Of a stretch of DNA of 64,000 nt, positions 234 through 27,397 are shown piece after piece. The notes beneath the pieces are model-generated. The model made no database searches, was not told the origin of the DNA, and was given only the letters and a program-made list of their open reading frames with translations. Positions within the stretch are counted from its first letter, which is position 1. Every line of letters starts with the position of its first letter. The translations under genes and the position numbers were made by a program. Source of the DNA: Luteibacter jiangsuensis (GTDB taxonomy: Bacteria; Pseudomonadota; Gammaproteobacteria; Xanthomonadales; Rhodanobacteraceae); the NCBI RefSeq assembly GCF_011742555.1, contig NZ_JAAQQR010000006.1:62001-126000 (forward strand), written 5' to 3'.

Positions 234-683
234 ATGAATATCAAGACCGTCCTCGGCCTCCCCCTGGCCGCCCTGCTCGCCACGGCGATGGCCGCCCCCG
301 CATCGGCGGCCGTGCTGACGCGCAGCGACGGCATCTACGTGCGCTGCGACCAGTGTGGCGTGGTGCAGAGCATCGAACACAACGTCACCGCCGGACGCGA
401 GCATGGCACCGCCGGCGCGGTGATCGGCGCCATCGCCGGCGGCGTCCTCGGCAACCAGGTCGGCAAGGGCAAGGGCCGCACCCTCGCCACGGTCGGCGGC
501 GCGGTGGGCGGCGGCTTCGCCGGCAACGCCATCGGCAAGGGCGGCGGCAGCGACAGCTACACGCTGCGCCTGAAGATGGGCACCGGTGGCTACACCAATG
601 TCCAGGTGAAGGACGCTTCGGCCATCCGCGAAGGCGACATCGTGGTCGTGGACGACCAGGGCAACGTGTCGCGCGTGCAGTAA
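234..683 (+). CDS. Glycine-zipper 2TM surface/outer-membrane protein
   Basis: 149 residues. The ATG at 234 follows a strong AAGGAG ribosome site about 10 nt upstream and opens a clean Sec signal peptide (LAALLATAMAAPASA), so longer in-frame starts are rejected. The mature part has a CDQCG pair near residue 40, then a Gly-rich double zipper (GAVIGAIAGGVLGNQVGKG ... GGAVGGGFAGNAIG, roughly residues 65-105) as in Rick_17kDa_Anti/SlyB-like proteins, then a small beta-rich tail ending in DIVVVDDQGNV. Probably envelope-associated, possibly structural. It is one of three relatives in this window (see 16160-16627 and 16660-17256). Exact function is not known. Confidence 0.85.
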   Translation: MNIKTVLGLPLAALLATAMAAPASAAVLTRSDGIYVRCDQCGVVQSIEHNVTAGREHGTAGAVIGAIAGGVLGNQVGKGKGRTLATVGGAVGGGFAGNAIGKGGGSDSYTLRLKMGTGGYTNVQVKDASAIREGDIVVVDDQGNVSRVQ

Positions 684-698
684 GCCGCCAGGAAGAAA

Positions 699-770
699 TG
701 TGGGAGCCGCTTCAGCGGCGATAGGTGCTTGCCCGCTGCCGCGGGATCGCCGCTGAAGCGGCTCCCACAC
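699..770. repeat. REP/BIME-type palindromic repeat
   Basis: Short unit in which GTGGGAGCCGCTTCAGCGGC is matched by its reverse complement at the other end, with a central GCCCGCTGCCGCGGG hairpin. It lies between the convergent glycine-zipper gene and pncB and ends 10 nt from the pncB stop. Same family as the copies at 3246, 9734, 10516, 25062 and 54208, here about 10 bp shorter in the middle. Confidence 0.9.
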
Positions 771-779
771 AGACAAAAA

Positions 780-1961
780 TTACGCGGCCGGCAGTTCGAA
801 CACCCTGCGCAGGTAGGCGATGTAGTCGGGATCTTCCCCACCCATGCTCTTCCCCGGCGAATCCGACAGCTTCGCCACGGGCTGACCGTTGCAGCGGGTC
901 ATCTTGATGACGATGTTGATGGGCGTCGGCCCCACGTCGTTGGTGAGATTGGTGCCCACGCCGAACGAAAGCAGGCACCGCCCGGCGAAATGCCGGTAGA
1001 GCTCCATGACGCGCGGTATGTCCAGGCTGTCGCTGAAAACCAGCGTCTTTGTGCGCGGGTCCACCCGGTTCTTCTCGTAATGCGCGATCACCCGGTCGCC
1101 CCACACGATGGGGTCGCCGGAATCGTGCCGCGCGCCGTCGAACAGCTTGCAGAAGTACATGTCGAAATCGCGCAGGAACGCATCCAGGCCGTAGACGTCG
1201 GACAGCGCGATGCCCAGGTCTCCCCGGTACTCGCGCGCCCAGGCTTCCAGCGCTGCGGTCTGCGAATCGCGCAGGCGCGGGCCCAGCGACTGGAAGGCCT
1301 GCAGGTACTCGTGCGCCATGCTGCCGATGGGTACCAGCCCCTGGCGCATCGCCAGCCAGACGTTGCTGGTGCCGGCCAGCTGCGGGCCCAGTTCGTTGCG
1401 CAGGATGCCGAGCATCTCTTCATGCCAATCGCGCGAAAAGCGGCGGCGTGTGCCGTAATCGGCGATGCGCACGCTTTCGTACCCTGGCGTGTCGCGCAGC
1501 AGCGCGATCTTCGCGCGCAGGCGCGCCCTGCCCTCGTCCAGATCGATGTCCGGACAGGTCGCCCGGAAATACAGTTCGTTCACGATGGCGAGCAGCGGCA
1601 CCTCGAACATGATGGTGTGCAGCCACGGGCCGGCGATCACGATCTCGATCTCGCCTTCCGCTTTCGTCGACGGTTGGATCGTCACGTACTTCGCGTTGAG
1701 CTGGAACAGGCCGAGGAAATCGACGAAGTCGCTGTCGATGAAGCGAAGGCTGCCCAGGTAGGCCAGCTCCTCCTCGGTGAAGCGCAGGCTGCACAGTGCC
1801 TTCAGTTCCTCGCGGATGCTGTCGATCAGCGGCACGAGGTTCACGCCGGGGGTGCGGCAGCGGAACCGGTACTCGACCTGCGCGGCCGGGTACTGGTGCA
1901 GCACCACCTGCATCATCGTGAACTTGTAGAGGTCGGTGTCGAGCAGCGATTGCACAATCAT
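780..1961 (-). CDS. pncB: Nicotinate phosphoribosyltransferase
   Basis: 393 residues, close to the E. coli enzyme (400). Converts nicotinate and PRPP to nicotinate mononucleotide in the Preiss-Handler NAD salvage route, coupled to ATP use; cytosolic. The N-terminus [18 protein letters not shown] and the later [10 protein letters not shown] segment (PRPP-binding region) are diagnostic of the family. The start ATG at 1961 overlaps the TGA of the thioredoxin-like gene by 4 nt, so the two are co-translated. The ORF could be extended upstream through the neighbouring gene in another frame, but that stretch has no family likeness. Confidence 0.95.
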
Positions 1962-2341
1962 GCGCTGGCGCCCGTGGCGGCGATCTGCCGGTTCACCGCG
2001 TCCACGAACGGCTGCGTGCCGGGCCAGGAGGTGATGCGGCCGAGCTTCTTGCCCCGGTGGAAAAGGAAGAAGGCGGGAATGCCGTGCAGTCCGAAACGCG
2101 TAGCCATGGTGGGATCGTCGTACACGTTGTCGTGCAGCCAGCGCACCTCCGGCCACGCGAAGCGTTCCGGCGTGAGCAGGATCTGGCGCTTGGCGATATC
2201 GCAGTTGGGACAGTCGCGCCCCCACAGGAAGAGGATGGCGATGCGGTTGTCGTCGGCGGCCAGATTGGCGTCGAGTTCGCGGTCGACGATGCGTTCCATC
2301 GGAAAGCGCTGGAAGAACTCGGGAACGCTGGTATCGGACAT
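1958..2341 (-). CDS. Thioredoxin-family protein
   Basis: 127 residues with a thioredoxin fold: the redox motif CPNC sits in [14 protein letters not shown] near residue 46, and the cis-Pro loop is in [17 protein letters not shown] near residue 90. No signal peptide, so cytosolic. ATG at 2341 is the first Met before the conserved domain. It is the first gene of a two-gene unit with pncB (4-nt overlap) and diverges from the cytochrome gene at 2424. The CPNC active site differs from the CGPC of housekeeping thioredoxins; the substrate is unknown. Confidence 0.85.
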
Positions 2342-2423
2342 GGGAAAATCCGTGATCGGGTCGAACAGCCCACATGGGGTCGGTGCGGCGATAATCCGAG
2401 GGTACCTCCACCAGGGATTTTCC

Positions 2424-3233
2424 GTGCGCACCTTTCTCGCCTGTCTGCTCCTGCTCTGTGCAGCTCCGGCCATGGCGGCCAACCTCGTCGTCGACACGGG
2501 CGCGGGGCCCCGCACGTTCACCACGGAACAGCTGCTGGCGCGGCCCGACACCCGGGACATCGAGGTACCCGGAGACGTCTCGTACCACCGCACGGCCCGT
2601 TACCGTGCCATACCGTTGCGCGCCCTCCTGCCGGGCGTGCCGGCGGACGCGCACCTGCAGTTCGTGGCGCTCGATGGCTTCGCGGCCGAGGTGCCGGCGT
2701 CACTGGCGCTGGGAGGCCGCGGCGCGGAAGCCTGGCTCGCCATCGAGCCGGCCGCCGGGTGGCCTCCGCTGGGCGAGGGCAAGCCCAGCGCCGGGCCCTT
2801 CTATCTCGTGTGGCTGCATCCGGAAGCGGCGCACGTGGGGCCCGAACAATGGCCTTACCAGGTAGCCTCGATCCGTGTGCTGGCCCCGCCCGCGGCGCGC
2901 TTCCCGGCCATGCAGCCGGCAGCGTCGCTGCCGCCGGACGCCCCAGCCCGGCGCGGCTTCGCCGTGTTCCAGCGCAACTGCCTCAGCTGCCACACCCTCA
3001 ACGGCCAGGGCGACGCGAAGCTCGGGCCGGACCTCAACCTGCCGCATAGCCCCACCGAATACCTCCGCGACGACATGTTCCGCACGCTCGTGCGCAACCC
3101 GCAGGATCTCCGGCACTGGCCGCAAGCGAAGATGCCGGGCTTCGACAGGAAAGTGCTTTCGGATGCGGATCTGGACGACCTGGTGGCGTATCTGAAGCAC
3201 ATGGCGACGCGTAAGCGGAAAGCCTCGCCGTAA
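2424..3233 (+). CDS. Periplasmic monohaem cytochrome c with N-terminal oxidoreductase-like domain
   Basis: 269 residues from a GTG start at 2424, with AGGGA about 8 nt upstream and a Sec signal peptide right behind it ([11 protein letters not shown]). Residues about 20-165 resemble the molybdopterin-oxidoreductase-like beta fold often joined to small cytochromes in Xanthomonadales (inference from the [13 protein letters not shown] and FYLVWLHPE segments). The C-terminal 90 residues are a class I cytochrome c: haem site CLSCH near residue 190 and axial Met in AKMPGF. A much longer in-frame ORF reaches back to 729 antisense to pncB, but it has no coding sense. Role: periplasmic electron transfer, partner unknown. 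Confidence 0.8.
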
Positions 3234-3245
3234 CGCCGGAGATTC

Positions 3246-3450
3246 TGTGGGAGCCGCTTCAGCGGCGATGGGTGCTCGCGGCAAGGTTGCCCGCTGCCGC
3301 GGGATCGCCGGCATAGCCGGCTCCCACAATGAGCAGGTCGGCTCCCACAAAAGAGCGGCCTGCTTTCTGTGGGAGCCGCTTCAGCGGCGATGGGTGCTCG
3401 CGGCAAGATGGCCCGCTGCCGCGGGATCGCCGGCATAGCCGGCTCCCACA
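3246..3450. repeat. Two tandem REP units, 122-bp period
   Basis: Two near-identical 83-bp palindromic units (3246-3328 and 3368-3450) are separated by a 39-bp linker that contains a further CGGCTCCCACA half site. Start-to-start distance is 122 bp, the same period as the array at 25084-26714 but in reverse orientation. Both units carry the sequence CATAGCCGGCTCCCAC (3312-3327 and 3434-3449) recognised by the IS110 element described below. The stop codon of the neighbouring aminopeptidase lies inside the second unit. Confidence 0.9.
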
Positions 3451-4484
3451 GTAGCGCGCGACAAGCGTTCGAGTTCCTGGGTACGTGCCGCCGGAGACAG
3501 CTTCGCCAGCACTCTCACCCGCGCAAAGAACGCCGGCCACGAGCGGCCGGTTTCTTCGAACAGTGCCGCGAACGACGGCACCCAGGTGTCGTAAAGGCCG
3601 AACGGCAACAGCATTGCGTTGTTGAGGGATCGCGACATCCAACGGTCGTAGCGGTGATCGCCGTCGGCCTCGCCGTCGCGCCACACGAGGTAGCGCCCAC
3701 GGAAGTCCTCGAACTCCTCCGCCTTGGCCACGCGCTTCGCTTCGTCGGTCCAGGGCTCGGCATAGAGGGCTTTCAGGCGCTCCCGCAAGGCCAGCACCTG
3801 CTGCGTGAATGCACGCTCCAGCGCGTCGCCCTTTTCGTCGGGCTGCGGCAGGTTCCGCGCGGAACGCCATTCGCGCAGGCCTTCGCGCTCCACGAAGCTG
3901 GCGAACGACTCGTTGAACGACGAGTCGTCCTTCACGTAGATCTTCTGGTGCGCAAGCTCGTGGAAGATTGTGCCGGCGAGTTCGTCGTCGTCCCAGCGCA
4001 GCATGCTGCTCAGTATCGGATCGGCAAACCATCCCAGCGTGGAGTACGCCGGCACTTCGCCGATGGCGACGTCGTGGCCCAGAGCCTTCTCACGCGCGGC
4101 CTCGCGCCGGGCGAGGTCCTGATCGAAATAACCGCGGTAGGCGACACAACCGGCGATAGGAAAACAATGCGTCACCGGCGACACGGAGAGCGCCGGCGTG
4201 GCGAACACGTTCCAGGCACCCCATGGACGATCGAGCTGCACGTAATACGTGTAGCTGCGATTGTCCGGCAGATCCAGCTGCGAGGACGCGAAGCGCCGGG
4301 CCTCAATGGCCAGTTCGAGCCGGCGACGGGTGGCTTGCGGAACCTTCGGGTCCGCAAGCACCTTCGCGATCGGGCGGCGTTCGTGGAGAAGCGCCGCCTG
4401 CCCATGGGCCACGTGGGCGTAGTAACCGATGGAGCGGCACCCCGAGACCAGGAGCACGAGGATGGCGGCGATGGCGATGCGCAT
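3381..4484 (-). CDS. Putative lipoprotein aminopeptidase (zinc metallopeptidase)
   Basis: 367 residues. The N-terminus MRIAIAAILVLLVSGCRS is a lipoprotein signal with Cys at residue 16, so the protein is probably membrane-anchored in the periplasm. The zinc motif HELAHQ sits near residue 187, preceded by an FADPILSSML segment typical of the predicted aminopeptidase family (Pfam PF10023, Aminopep). The last ~24 residues (after ERLSRATV) are encoded by the REP palindrome at 3368-3450, which also supplies the TGA; the original stop seems to have been lost or replaced when the REP arrived. Followed 20 nt upstream by cytochrome b561 in the same direction. Confidence 0.85.
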   Translation of the reverse strand: MRIAIAAILVLLVSGCRSIGYYAHVAHGQAALLHERRPIAKVLADPKVPQATRRRLELAIEARRFASSQLDLPDNRSYTYYVQLDRPWGAWNVFATPALSVSPVTHCFPIAGCVAYRGYFDQDLARREAAREKALGHDVAIGEVPAYSTLGWFADPILSSMLRWDDDELAGTIFHELAHQKIYVKDDSSFNESFASFVEREGLREWRSARNLPQPDEKGDALERAFTQQVLALRERLKALYAEPWTDEAKRVAKAEEFEDFRGRYLVWRDGEADGDHRYDRWMSRSLNNAMLLPFGLYDTWVPSFAALFEETGRSWPAFFARVRVLAKLSPAARTQELERLSRATVGAGYAGDPAAAGHLAASTHRR

Positions 4485-23087: not shown

Positions 23088-23588
23088 ATGGCACAAACCC
23101 TACGCATCATTAAGAAGTATCCGAACCGTCGTCTCTACGATACGGAAATCTCGAGTTACATCACGCTGGAAGAGGTCCGCCAGCTGGTGCTCGATGGGGA
23201 AACCTTCGAGGTTCGCGACGCCAAGTCCGGCGAGGACCTGACCCGATCGGTGTTGCTGCAGATCATTGCGGAGCACGAGGAGCACGGCCAGCCGATGCTC
23301 TCGCCGCAACTGCTGTCGCACATCATCCGCTTCTACGGCGATTCGCTGCAGGGCTTCATGGGTCCGTACCTGGAGCGCAGCCTGCAGGTCTTCCTCGACC
23401 AGCAGCAGCAGTTCCGCAACCAGCTGAACAGCCTGATGGGCCAGACGCCGTGGTCCATGCTCAACGAGATGACCGAGCGCAACCTCGACGTATGGAAGTC
23501 GATGCAGCGCGGGTTCCTCGATGCGGCCACCGCCAAGCCGGCGGAGCCCGTGCGCCCCGCCACGCGCACCGGCAAGAAGGCGGGCTGA
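23088..23588 (+). CDS. phaR: Polyhydroxyalkanoate synthesis repressor PhaR
   Basis: 166 residues. N-terminal PHB/PHA accumulation DNA-binding domain RIIKKYPNRRLYDTEISSYITLEEV (residues 5-65) is diagnostic, followed by the helical PHB_acc region (LSPQLLSHIIRFYGDSLQGFMGPYLERSL). It normally senses PHA granules and represses phasin genes. No pha synthesis gene is in the window. An AT-richer 107-bp gap (22981-23087) separates it from emrB and should hold its promoter. Confidence 0.93.
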   Translation: MAQTLRIIKKYPNRRLYDTEISSYITLEEVRQLVLDGETFEVRDAKSGEDLTRSVLLQIIAEHEEHGQPMLSPQLLSHIIRFYGDSLQGFMGPYLERSLQVFLDQQQQFRNQLNSLMGQTPWSMLNEMTERNLDVWKSMQRGFLDAATAKPAEPVRPATRTGKKAG

Positions 23589-23673
23589 CCGGCGCCCCTG
23601 GCCCTCTTGCCCCCGGCGGCGCTGCGGCGCACGATGCGCTGCCCCGCAATATCGCGTCCGGACGAAGGTCGCC

Positions 23674-25041
23674 ATGCCCCGTAACGACATCACCGTGGTC
23701 GGCGCCGGATTGGTCGGCGCCATGGTGGCCACCCTGCTGACCCAACGCGGCTTTCGCGTCACCGTCTACGAAAAGCGTCCGGACCCGCGCAAGGCCGGCT
23801 TTCTCGGGGGGCGCTCGATCAATCTCGCGCTCGCGGAGCGCGGTCTGCACGCCCTGCGCGCCACCGGGCTGGCGGACCGCGTGCTCGAGCAGGCCGTGAT
23901 GATGCGCGGGCGAATGGTGCACGACCCTGCCGGCCATAGCGGGCTCCAGCGCTATGGCGTGGACGACACCGAAGTGATCTGGTCGGTGTCGCGCGGCGGA
24001 CTCAATACCCTAATGCTGGACGCCGCCGAGGCGGCGGGCGCCACGGTGCACTTCGACCAGGGCCTGGCCGGTGCGGATCTGGAAGCCGGAACGCTGCGCC
24101 TGCGCGACAGCGCCGGCAACGAGCGCACGGTCGATGCGCCGGTGGTGATCGGAGCCGACGGTGCCGGGTCGGCCCTGCGCGCCGCCATGCACGCGCATTC
24201 GCCGCTCGGCGAACGCGTGGAAGAACTGGGCCACGGTTACAAGGAGCTGGAGATCCCGCCCGGCCACGATCCGTCCGCCCCGTTCGCGATCGAGCGCAAC
24301 GCGCTGCATATCTGGCCACGCGGCCACTACATGTGCATCGCCCTGCCGAATCGCGAAGGCAGCTTCACCGTGACGCTGTTCCTGCCGAACGACGGGCCGC
24401 ATCCCAGCTTCCGCAGCATTGCCGGAACGGGCGCCGCCGAAGCGTTCTTCCGGACCGAATTCCCCGATGCGCTCGCACTGATGCCCGATTTCGCGGCCGA
24501 CTGGGCGGCGCATCCGGTGGGCACCCTGGGCACGCTCTACCTCGACCGCTGGCATATTGGCGGACGCGCATTGTTGATCGGCGACGCGGCGCACGCCATC
24601 GTGCCGTTCCACGGGCAAGGCATGAACTGCGGCTTCGAGGATGCCGCCGAGCTGGCGGATCTCTTCGCCGCGCAACCCGACGACGCCGCGGCCGTGTTCG
24701 CGGCCTTCGAAGCGAAACGCAAGCCGAACGCGGACGCCATCGCGAAGATGGCGCTGGAAAACTACGTGGAAATGCGCGATTCCGTCGCGGACCCGCACTA
24801 CCTGCGCAAGCGCGAACTCGGCGCCCTGCTGGCGGAACGTTCGCCCAGGCACTACCTGCCGCGTTATCGCATGGTCACCTTCACCCACCTGCCCTACGCC
24901 TATGCGCTGGAGCGCGGTCGCGCGCAGGACGTGCTGGTGGAGCAGCTGCTGAAGGGCCACGATGCCGTGGCGTCGGTGGATCTGGATGCCGCAGTACGAA
25001 CCCTCGAGGCCACGTTGCCTCCTCTGCCCTCGCTGCTGTAA
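23674..25041 (+). CDS. kmo: Kynurenine 3-monooxygenase
   Basis: 455 residues, as expected. FAD motif GAGLVGAMVATLL at the N-terminus, RSINLALAERGLHALRATGL (kynurenine-binding Arg/Tyr region), DG motif GADGAGSALRA, and GDAAHAIVPFHGQGMNCGFED. Hydroxylates kynurenine to 3-hydroxykynurenine with NADPH and O2 in tryptophan breakdown to quinolinate/NAD. No other kyn-pathway gene is adjacent. ATG 23674 directly precedes the FAD fold; upstream in-frame sequence overlaps phaR and is not coding. Confidence 0.95.
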   Translation: MPRNDITVVGAGLVGAMVATLLTQRGFRVTVYEKRPDPRKAGFLGGRSINLALAERGLHALRATGLADRVLEQAVMMRGRMVHDPAGHSGLQRYGVDDTEVIWSVSRGGLNTLMLDAAEAAGATVHFDQGLAGADLEAGTLRLRDSAGNERTVDAPVVIGADGAGSALRAAMHAHSPLGERVEELGHGYKELEIPPGHDPSAPFAIERNALHIWPRGHYMCIALPNREGSFTVTLFLPNDGPHPSFRSIAGTGAAEAFFRTEFPDALALMPDFAADWAAHPVGTLGTLYLDRWHIGGRALLIGDAAHAIVPFHGQGMNCGFEDAAELADLFAAQPDDAAAVFAAFEAKRKPNADAIAKMALENYVEMRDSVADPHYLRKRELGALLAERSPRHYLPRYRMVTFTHLPYAYALERGRAQDVLVEQLLKGHDAVASVDLDAAVRTLEATLPPLPSLL

Positions 25042-25215
25042 CGGGTCAGGCCTCCGCTTTCTGTGGGAGCCGACCTGCTCTGTGTGGGTGCCGGCTTTGC
25101 CGGCGATCCCGCGGCAGCGGGCAGGCTCGCGGCAAGCACCCATCGCCGCTGAAGCGGCTCCCACAGAAGCGGACCCGCTCTTTTATGGGAGTCGACCCGC
25201 TTTGTGTGGGAGATC

Positions 25216-26166
25216 CTATGTTCCCGCGCAAGCGGCCGCGAAGCGTTGAGGGTCGAAGGTCGTGCCCTGGCTGATGAGCGCATGGGCCAGACGAAGAATC
25301 TTCCTGGCGAGGATGACGTAGGTCGCTGTGGCGCTGAGGCCTCGCTGACGATAGCGGTCGTAGAGAGGCCTGCCGACGGGGTGCCGGGCGAAGGCCTGGG
25401 CGGCGAGGTAGCCGAGACGCCGGGTCTCGGCGTCCCCTCGCTTGGAGATCCTTCGTTGCCCGCGATAGTTACCCGATTCGCGCGGGCGCGGATCGAAGCC
25501 GACAAAAGCAATCAAGCCGTCGGCCGTGATGCTGGGCAGGCGCCAGAACAAGCTGACCAGGGCGAGGCTGTTCAAGGGCCCGACGCCGGGAATGGAGCGC
25601 AGTTGCTCACGCTGACGGGCACGTTGCTCGTCCTGGGCGACCAGCGCATCGAGCTGCTCGTCCAGCGCGGCCAGGGTCGCCTTGAAACTGGCATGCAGGT
25701 GATCCATCGCCGGCAGCGCCAGATCGCTACAGCCGAGTCGGAGCTGCGCCTGTGTCTGTGCCAGCAGGGCGCGTCGTCGCAGCAGCTGCTCCAGGCGCGC
25801 CGCGCTGGCCGGCGCGGGCAGATAACGGCGCAGGTTGCCCTTCTCGTGGGCGACATAACGGGCGATGACCTGGGCATCGACCCGGTCGGTCTTGGTCCGT
25901 CGGCGCAGACTTTCGGCGTAGTGACGGACGTCGCGGGGGTTGAGCAGGTAGATCGGCAGGTCGTGGCGGACGGCGCCCTGTAGCAGGGCCTGATGGCAGG
26001 CCCCGGTGGCCTCCACCGCGAGCACACTGTGGGCAGGCAATCGGCGTAACCAGGCGTCGATCGACGCGGCGTCGTTGCTCACCCGCTCGGTACGGCCGGG
26101 CACCTCATGACAGGCCACCGTCAGGGCGGCTTTGTCGATATCGATTCCGAAATGCTGTAGTGGCAT
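25216..26166 (-). CDS. IS110-family transposase (bridge-RNA-guided recombinase)
   Basis: 316 residues. N-terminal RuvC-like DEDD domain: Asp 9 (FGIDIDK), Glu 52 (VEATG), Asp 94 and Asp 97 (TKTDRVDAQ). A coiled coil (about 120-185) leads to the Tnp_20 domain with LRSIPGVGPLNSLAL and FVGFDPRPRESGNYRGQRRISKRG; Ser 231 or Ser 241 is the likely nucleophile. The enzyme would join element ends and target using the RNA encoded just upstream. Reading frame is intact and all catalytic residues are present, so it is probably active. ATG 26166 is the only sensible start. Confidence 0.95.
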   Translation of the reverse strand: MPLQHFGIDIDKAALTVACHEVPGRTERVSNDAASIDAWLRRLPAHSVLAVEATGACHQALLQGAVRHDLPIYLLNPRDVRHYAESLRRRTKTDRVDAQVIARYVAHEKGNLRRYLPAPASAARLEQLLRRRALLAQTQAQLRLGCSDLALPAMDHLHASFKATLAALDEQLDALVAQDEQRARQREQLRSIPGVGPLNSLALVSLFWRLPSITADGLIAFVGFDPRPRESGNYRGQRRISKRGDAETRRLGYLAAQAFARHPVGRPLYDRYRQRGLSATATYVILARKILRLAHALISQGTTFDPQRFAAACAGT

Positions 26167-26210
26167 GGCGACCCAACTCCTCGTAGTCTCAAGGACGGCT
26201 GGGGTGAAGT

Positions 26211-26378
26211 CCCATCAGGCGTTAGCTTGTTCATCGGCGATCGGATCGCCAGATCCTTCATCGACGCTCACGATGGGATAGGGATGTCTCCCACGGTCGG
26301 TCTCCTCATACGAGCCGATACCAGCTATGTCCCTCACCCCAGCCCCTTATCTCTCAGCCATCGGCGGGGAGAAAGGGG
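26211..26378 (-). ncRNA. Bridge RNA of the IS110 element
   Basis: About 168 nt, close to the 177 nt known for IS621. Read on the minus strand: a 5' hairpin (arms 26378-26369 and 26355-26343, CCCCTT with AAGGGG); a target loop closed by GGGA (26333-26330) and TCCC (26284-26281), with an inner stem (26322-26312 with 26304-26295); a donor loop closed by CCCATC+GCGT and ACGC+GATGGG, with perfect inner stem GGCGAT/ATCGCC. Target guides: left CATAGCTGG (26329-26321) equals the REP side CATAGCCGG except for one wobble; right GTGGGAG (26294-26288) is complementary to CTCCCAC. Donor guides: AGGATCT (26257-26251) equals the element's right end; ACAAG (26230-26226) complements its left end CTTGT. RNA ends are estimates. 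Confidence 0.85.
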
Positions 26379-26761
26379 CGGTCACAACATACAAGCCGGC
26401 TATGCCGGCGATCCCGCGGCAGCGGGCAGGCTTGCGGCAAGCACCCATCGCCGCTGAAGCGGCTCCCACAGAAGCGGACCCGCTCCTTTATGGGAGTCGA
26501 CCCGCTTTGTGTGGGAGCCGGCTATGCCGGCGATCCCGCGGCAGCGGGCAGGCTTGCGGCAAGCACCCATCGCCGCTGAAGCGGCTCCCACAGAAGCGGA
26601 CCCGCTCTTTTATGGGAGTCGACCCGCTTTGTGTGGGAGCCGGCTATGCCGGCGATCCCGCGGCAGCGGGCACACTCGCAGCAAGCACCCATCGCCGCTG
26701 AACCGGCTCCCACACAAGGCGAAACGTGGACAACTCCCGCCATGACCGCAACAATCGCCGG

Positions 26762-27397
26762 ATGACTTTCGCCCCCGAACCCGCTCCACTGCTCGAAGCG
26801 CGCGCGCTTGCGTTCCTGCGCCAGGACGAGCCGGTGTTCGGGCCTTTGGATTTCGCGCTGCGCGCCGGTGAGGTCGCGCTGGTGGAAGGCGACAACGGGA
26901 GCGGCAAGACCACGTTGATGCGTGTGCTCACGGGCATGCTGCGTCCGGGCGAAGGCGAGGTCCGGCTGGACGGGGCTGCCTTCTCGCTCGACACGATGGC
27001 CGGTGCGGTGGTGTTCCTCGGCCACCACCTCGGCCTCAAGCTGGATCTCTCCGCGCGCGAGAACCTGCGCGTAAGCGTCGGCCTTTACGGCCAGCGCGAG
27101 GGCACGAGCGCCGACGCCGCGCTCGCCGAGGTGGGCCTGGCCGGTTTCGAGGACGAACCGGTGCGTCGTCTCTCGGCAGGCCAGAAGAAGCGTGCCGCTC
27201 TGGCACGACTGCTGTTGCTGCCGGCGCGCGTGTGGCTGCTCGACGAGCCGTATGCCAACCTCGACCGCGAAGGCATCGCGCTCGTGAACCGGCTGCTGGA
27301 AGGCCACGCCGGGCGTGGCGGCGCCGCCCTCGTCACGAGCCATGGTGCCGTAAGTTTCGCCGGGGGCGAACCCCGACGCATCCGGTTGCACGCATGA
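26762..27397 (+). CDS. ccmA: Haem exporter ATP-binding protein CcmA
   Basis: 211 residues. Walker A EGDNGSGKTTL (about 41-51), signature LSAGQKKRAALARLL and Walker B VWLLDEPYANLD are clear. With CcmB it forms the ABC unit that releases holo-CcmE from CcmC in System I cytochrome c maturation. ATG 26762 chosen over 26726 because the ABC fold starts there; the longer form begins in REP-flanking DNA. Overlaps ccmB by 4 nt. Confidence 0.93.
   Translation: MTFAPEPAPLLEARALAFLRQDEPVFGPLDFALRAGEVALVEGDNGSGKTTLMRVLTGMLRPGEGEVRLDGAAFSLDTMAGAVVFLGHHLGLKLDLSARENLRVSVGLYGQREGTSADAALAEVGLAGFEDEPVRRLSAGQKKRAALARLLLLPARVWLLDEPYANLDREGIALVNRLLEGHAGRGGAALVTSHGAVSFAGGEPRRIRLHA

Follow-up and report, generated by a model that had tools for sequence, protein, structure and literature searches.

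The window analysed here, a stretch of 64,000 nucleotides of the Luteibacter jiangsuensis genome to which all positions below refer, contains an insertion sequence inside a tandem array of REP units, and it raises the question whether an RNA encoded in the left end of the element guides it both to its REP target and to its own ends. Bridge RNAs, covariation with the target, a promoter formed at the junction of the ends and insertion into REPs have been described for IS621 and its orthologues (PMC11208160, PMC11208158), and a preference of several insertion sequences for REPs was reported in 2006 (PMC1525189).

The element and its insertion site

The limits of the element, its cores and the two halves of its target, the last two read directly from the letters, are as follows:

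25211–26395, minus strand: whole IS110-group element, 1185 bp including both CT cores; same ends in two near-identical copies
26394–26395, minus strand: CT core, left end
25211–25212, minus strand: CT core, right end
26396–26404, minus strand: left half of the target REP, CATAGCCGG
25206–25212, minus strand: right half of the target REP with the core, CTCCCAC

On the minus strand, the occupied site reads CATAGCCGG (26404–26396)-CT-CCCAC (25210–25206), the left end of the element is CT-TGTATG from 26395, the right end is ACATAGGAT-CT to 25211, and the native target is CATAGCCGGCTCCCAC. The surrounding array consists of units of about 120 bp (25041–25210 and 26396–26720). When the element is removed and the flanks are joined, a REP unit is restored that is identical to the intact neighbour at 26511–26526 in 121 of 122 positions and to the next neighbouring unit in 118 of 122. 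A second copy in the host genome, 99% identical, lies inside another REP, in CATAGCCGG-CT-CCCACGG; both host copies are inserted in REPs. In the whole host genome 192 places have at most one mismatch to CATAGCYGGCTCCCAC, compared with 0 for the reversed control pattern; against these 192 REP sites, only two copies of the element were found. At the sequence level it is confirmed that this is an intact insertion sequence of the IS110 group in a tandem REP array.

The recombinase and its family

25216–26166, minus strand: recombinase gene, 316 aa (open reading frame), ending within the right end of the element (stop codon in ACATAG)
26177–26182, minus strand: probable ribosome-binding site GAGGAG of the recombinase gene

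The recombinase scored above the cut-offs of two Pfam families (PF01548, 73.2 bits with a cut-off of 29, and PF02371, 52.7 bits with a cut-off of 21.3) and of the curated NCBIfam model NF033542, 'IS110 family RNA-guided transposase' (166.1 bits, cut-off 140). The suggestion of the first-pass annotation that the element appears to be complete and uses REPs as home sites is supported. Among solved structures its best relative is IS621 (E 5e-24; phmmer 89 bits), followed by ISCro4, entry 9t56 (E 2.9e-23), and only these two were found at E ≤ 0.001. Residues D9, E52, D94, D97 and S241 line up with the catalytic residues of the IS621 chain, four acidic residues, D102 among them, and a serine. For D102 and S241 of IS621 the catalytic role is described in PMC11208158. 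Among plasmids, no match to the window recombinase was found at E ≤ 1e-50.

The IS110 group is described as having a long left non-coding end with the RNA, a short right end and a subterminal repeat of 2–3 bp (PMC11208160). In agreement with this, the element has 229 bp ahead of the start codon and less than 10 bp beyond the stop codon, and its donor is flanked by ATA/TAT, a short subterminal repeat. The arrangement of the IS1111 group, in which a long right end holds the RNA and the subterminal inverted repeats measure 7–17 bp, was also considered and does not fit; a downstream non-coding region is absent because the stop codon overlaps the right end.

Guides in the predicted RNA

26321–26329, minus strand: left target guide CAUAGCUGG; 9/9 pairs with the left half-site, one U-G
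26288–26294, minus strand: right target guide GUGGGAG, including the core; 7/7 pairs with CTCCCAC
26286–26287, minus strand: candidate handshake bases AC, directly 3' of the right target guide, placed by analogy (PMC11208158)
26251–26257, minus strand: left donor guide AGGAUCU, including the core; identical to the right end AGGATCT
26226–26234, minus strand: right donor guide AU(GA)ACAAG, including the core; discontiguous match to CTTGTAT in the IS621 layout
26224–26225, minus strand: candidate handshake bases CU, directly 3' of the right donor guide; the C pairs with the G at target position −1

All the guide stretches read in the first-pass annotation were found on the minus strand where it had placed them, namely CATAGCTGG at 26329–26321, GTGGGAG at 26294–26288, AGGATCT at 26257–26251 and ACAAG at 26230–26226. 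The U-G wobble that it had described in the left target guide is also present, and not only at the occupied site: all 87 places of the host genome that match CATAGCYGGCTCCCAC without mismatch read CATAGCCGG and none reads CATAGCTGG (0/87), and since the 87 read CCGG, the guide U faces a G genome-wide. Of its two second-loop guides, AGGATCT is the right end as claimed, whereas ACAAG, although present, is too short: the guide is better given as AU(GA)ACAAG, since AUGAACAAG can pair discontiguously with CTTGTAT, with two bases out. As for the candidate handshake bases AC, the A can pair with donor T7 and the C cannot pair with A6.

The proposed agreement with the IS621 mechanism is borne out in the order of the loops, the inner stems and the donor ends, but not in the core pairing of the left target guide. 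According to PMC11208160, all pairings of IS621 include the core; in the window element, the left target guide continues with UA where CU would be needed and has no core pairing, so that the core dinucleotide is contained in three of the four guides. Among the 15 elements compared below, CU follows the left guide in 4 in the alignment register, and core pairing in all four guides, although described for IS621, is not shared by all orthologues.

Short matches of this kind could be due to chance in a G+C-rich and repeat-rich stretch, and we evaluated this with 100,000 dinucleotide shuffles of the 170-nt stretch, G-U pairs being allowed. Single guides were not rare in the shuffles (left target guide 2.2%, right target guide 4.8%, left donor guide 12.3%, and the 5-nt right donor guide alone 98.8%), and the target-loop part of the window RNA folds no better than shuffled sequences. 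The left followed by the right target guide, however, occurred in 45 of the 100,000 shuffles and all four guides in order in none. The permutation test and the covarying stems reported below also contradict chance, which we hold to be extremely unlikely as the source of the matches.

Guides and targets among relatives

The relatives come from partly overlapping genome sets at four taxonomic ranks, namely family (233 genomes), order (398), class (369) and phylum (398), in which 3, 9, 9 and 3 genomes, respectively, had a match, own genome included. The E cut-off was 1e-60 for family, class and phylum and 1e-50 for the order, and at most 5–9 candidates per genome were scored; a further collection scan of contigs gave 2 relative loci. 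Both element ends could be placed in 28 loci. The 15 elements tested, mostly from Gammaproteobacteria, represent one for each distinct alignable guide set, each guide set of the host, G107, G307, G461 and G654/G765 being represented by a single locus. Left out before the counts were L055 and L057 (left end missing from the available sequence) and L042 (a further G461 locus), and also L025 from Burkholderiaceae, owing to a left end longer by about 210 nt; judged by eye, the left guide of L025 fits at 8/9 positions and the right guide only as CTGAG. L045 is without left flank, and the right target of L035 was taken from L045. L005–L013 are matches of 24–27 nt to the donor-loop region. The guide register was fixed by MAFFT alignment of the RNAs, with the targets not used.

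With G-U pairs allowed, the inner five non-core positions of the right guide were paired with the element's own target in 71 of 75 cases, against a mean of 38.9 when targets were permuted, and six positions in 78 of 90 cases against 44.4. For the left guide, 86 of 135 were paired over nine positions (permuted 56.8) and 67 of 90 over the inner six (permuted 40.7); position by position, the excess over the permuted level lies mainly in these inner six. Each of the four totals was reached by 0 of 100,000 target permutations, a count that is not an exact probability since the elements are related by descent. Donor ends hardly vary among the elements, and the result concerns targets. Examples of guides with their targets are GAGCCGAG for CTCGGCTC, GAGUCGAG for CTCGACTC, GGUUCAG for CTGAACC and UGAAUAAG for CTTATTCA; in the paralogues G544a and G544b of one genome the left guides are CCUGG and CUUGG, and the left targets differ likewise. 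The case that the first-pass annotation had singled out as speaking against it was that of related copies whose sites do not follow guide changes; in the 15 elements, instead, guides pair with their own targets far above the permuted level, and a dependence of guide and target across relatives is supported by this comparison.

The fit is not uniform. The left guides of 4 of the 15 elements (G253, G370, G394 and G797) fit better when shifted by 1–2 bases, by two in G394, and that of G540 pairs at only 4/9 positions; inserted bases are described as tolerated at some off-target sites of the IS621 system (PMC11208160). In a register-free search, the right guide result was reached by 0 of 20,000 permutations and the left guide was weaker, with 197 of 20,000, because a 9-mer finds about six matches in most RNAs. 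Concerning the handshake, the bases just 3' of the right guides pair in IS621 with the other DNA after strand exchange, as described in PMC11208158. In our set, target base −1 is complementary to the base that follows the right donor guide in 14 of the 15 elements, G797 being the exception; both elements with a target C at −1 have the complementary handshake base, and the two may share one change.

A same-genus case with poor guide fit

Genome G107, of the same genus, has five copies (L018, L021, L022, L023 and L024) with one guide pair, CGCUAGUGG and GUGAGAG, at the sites CCAGGGTGG (three copies), CTAGAGTGG and CCATAGCGG, with CTCCCAC next in each. At the commonest site 5/9 left positions are paired and there is one inner right mismatch. 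In the G107 genome no place was found with up to 2 mismatches to its 16-nt guide target, places with 3 mismatches are 30 compared with 75 for the control, and the perfect inner 11-mer of the guide target is absent; the 11-mer GTGGCTCCCAC has 77 copies compared with 4 of the control.

Five copies all in REP-like sites, in spite of the poor fit and of a genome that lacks any place with up to 2 mismatches, might indicate that the recombinase, or a host factor sitting on REPs, picks the site, and that the likeness of RNA and target is a by-product of shared ancestry or composition; a preference for GTGGCTCCCAC alone would explain the G107 sites. We nevertheless consider this very unlikely, as guides follow targets in the 15 elements, including CTTATTCA and CTGAACC, which do not look like REPs, and as the two paralogues of one genome show matching differences in left guide and left target. 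The misfit in G107 may reflect a guide that changed before the copies spread, inner positions that suffice for targeting, or another factor in REP preference. The case bears on the degree of mismatch that is tolerated in nature.

Further observations were made on single loci. Copy L023 of G107 (676–3945) is in the same intergenic REP array as the window element (23521–27397), in opposite orientation, both arrays lying between the same homologues, a 506-aa frame similar to FAD-dependent monooxygenases and ccmA. The recombinases are 67% identical and the flanking proteins 88% and 92% over the parts compared; together with the opposite orientation, these values suggest that one array received two insertions independently. 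In L024, also of G107, the recombinase frame is altered close to its end, with a match limited to query residues 2–250, and the ends of the element and its guides are kept. L044 (G307) has a partial tandem duplication of the bridge-RNA region at about 1144–1400, with an element of 1333 vs 1206 bp.

Structure of the RNA and its leader

26342–26379, minus strand: predicted 5' stem-loop of the bridge RNA (minimum-energy fold, one sequence only)
26335–26344, minus strand: candidate outer helix, 5' strand, competing with the outer target-loop stem (pairing runs compared in 15 elements)
26297–26318, minus strand: apical hairpin of the target loop, helix 3 of the consensus; 5/7 pairs changed on both sides
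26197–26206, minus strand: outer helix, 3' strand; 10 pairs in the window

Covariance folding in related elements had been proposed as a check of the first reading, and the structure does covary. RNAalifold on the 15 RNAs gave two stems whose internal loops coincide with the guide positions, a structure in which 96.5% of cells are paired, compared with 80.0 in shuffled alignments, and 12/23 pairs are changed on both sides, compared with 7.7 (reached by 1 of 500 shuffles); the covariation score is 0.518 against 0.192, in a test that favours the structure because the latter was derived from the same alignment. When the partner was slid by 1–3 columns, pairing fell to 34–47%. The number of further pair types was unexceptional (28 vs 25.2 shuffled, reached by 67 of 500). 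Folded alone, the window RNA gave z values of −2.77 (whole leader), −0.08 (target-loop part) and −1.12 (donor part); lone folding is weak evidence, and it is the covariation in relatives that carries the structure. At gathering thresholds, no Rfam family matched the element, and the hits in the window were limited to two tRNAs.

Beyond the two loops, an outer helix between the 5' strand of the target-loop stem and a stretch ahead of the ribosome-binding site is possible in 15 of 15 elements through runs of 6–10 pairs, with a mean of 7.93 vs 7.04 when strands were swapped between elements, a control that is high because the strands are G+C-rich; the mean was reached by 39 of 50,000 permutations, and the run reported for G540 is located elsewhere. 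As a speculation that we rate as rather improbable, this helix may make the leader two-state, either in the bridge RNA fold or as recombinase message; if this were true, one transcript in this clade would serve as the one or the other.

Predicted junction promoter and proposed mechanism

25226–25231, minus strand: predicted junction promoter, −35 half, TTGCGC (table of joined ends)
26386–26391, minus strand: predicted junction promoter, −10 half, TATGTT, 17 bp from −35 in the circle

When the ends were joined, TTG was exactly 17 bp ahead of TATG in 27 of 28 loci. The promoter predicted in the window matches the consensus at 3/6 positions in the −35 (weak) and 4/6 in the −10, in a sigma-70-like layout.

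This result bears also on whether the leader, which lies directly ahead of the gene, is only a translation control of the recombinase message, with no separate bridge RNA. A structured regulatory leader of this type, a 5'-UTR, is described for ISPpu9 (PMC8450116), and the outer helix of the window element reaches near the ribosome-binding site. From translation control, on the other hand, one would not expect an RNA complementary to the target and donor of the element that encodes it, nor a promoter that arises only when the ends are joined, and as the sole function of the leader it is very unlikely; the two roles are compatible.

Together with the bridge RNA, the following sequence of events can be proposed. 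The element would be excised and its ends joined into a circle, at whose junction TTGCGC-17 bp-TATGTT would form a promoter. From this promoter the left end would be transcribed into a bridge RNA of about 160 nt (roughly 26379–26220), which the recombinase would bind. Pairing of the target loop with both strands of the REP, CATAGCCGG-CT-CCCAC, and of the donor loop with AGGAT-CT-TGTAT at the joined ends would be followed by strand exchange at CT and insertion in a fixed orientation. What can be read from the DNA itself comprises the element limits, the empty site, the guide complementarity, the guide-target dependence, the covarying structure, the promoter layout and the family; transcription, circle formation, RNA binding and activity are what we infer from these. 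Taken as a whole, the element is very probably an intact insertion sequence of the IS110 group that works like IS621.

The mechanism and the REP preference being already published for IS621, what is new here is a further example and not a new mechanism. One raw genome window was enough to read where a bridge-RNA element has its home and which donor ends it joins, in a reading that survived an independent test in relatives, and a set of natural guide-target pairs, mostly from Gammaproteobacteria, is added.

Comparison with known systems

Among the other insertion sequences found in REPs, ISPpu9, ISPpu10 and ISPa11 resemble the window element in this insertion habit as described (PMC1525189); ISPa11 is treated as IS1111-type in PMC11187229. 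ISCro4 (9t56) is an IS110-family transposase by sequence, in a comparison that covered the protein. The seekRNAs of IS110-type elements, such as ISEc21, share with the window RNA the upstream non-coding position and short stretches complementary to each target strand (PMC11187229). They are described there as RNAs of 70–100 nt cut from a longer one, and natural reprogramming is reported for IS1111/IS110 in the same source.

IS621 differs from the window element in several respects. The recombinases are only remotely similar (phmmer 89 bits), the REP and the guides are others, the right target guide has 7 nt in the window element and 4 in IS621, and the left target guide of the window element is without core pairing. 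From the right donor guide to the start codon, the window element has 59 nt and the possible outer helix; in the IS621 copy examined the start codon comes directly after the donor loop, leaving no room for such a helix. The two have in common a DEDD recombinase, an RNA in the left end with the target loop followed by the donor loop, left and right guides that follow the target (the donor hardly varies), and the CT core. They also share the right donor CTTGTAT with a discontiguous right donor guide, which in IS621 is AU(UU)GCAAG in the layout described in PMC11208158, the junction promoter, the REP target and a wobble pair in the left target guide.
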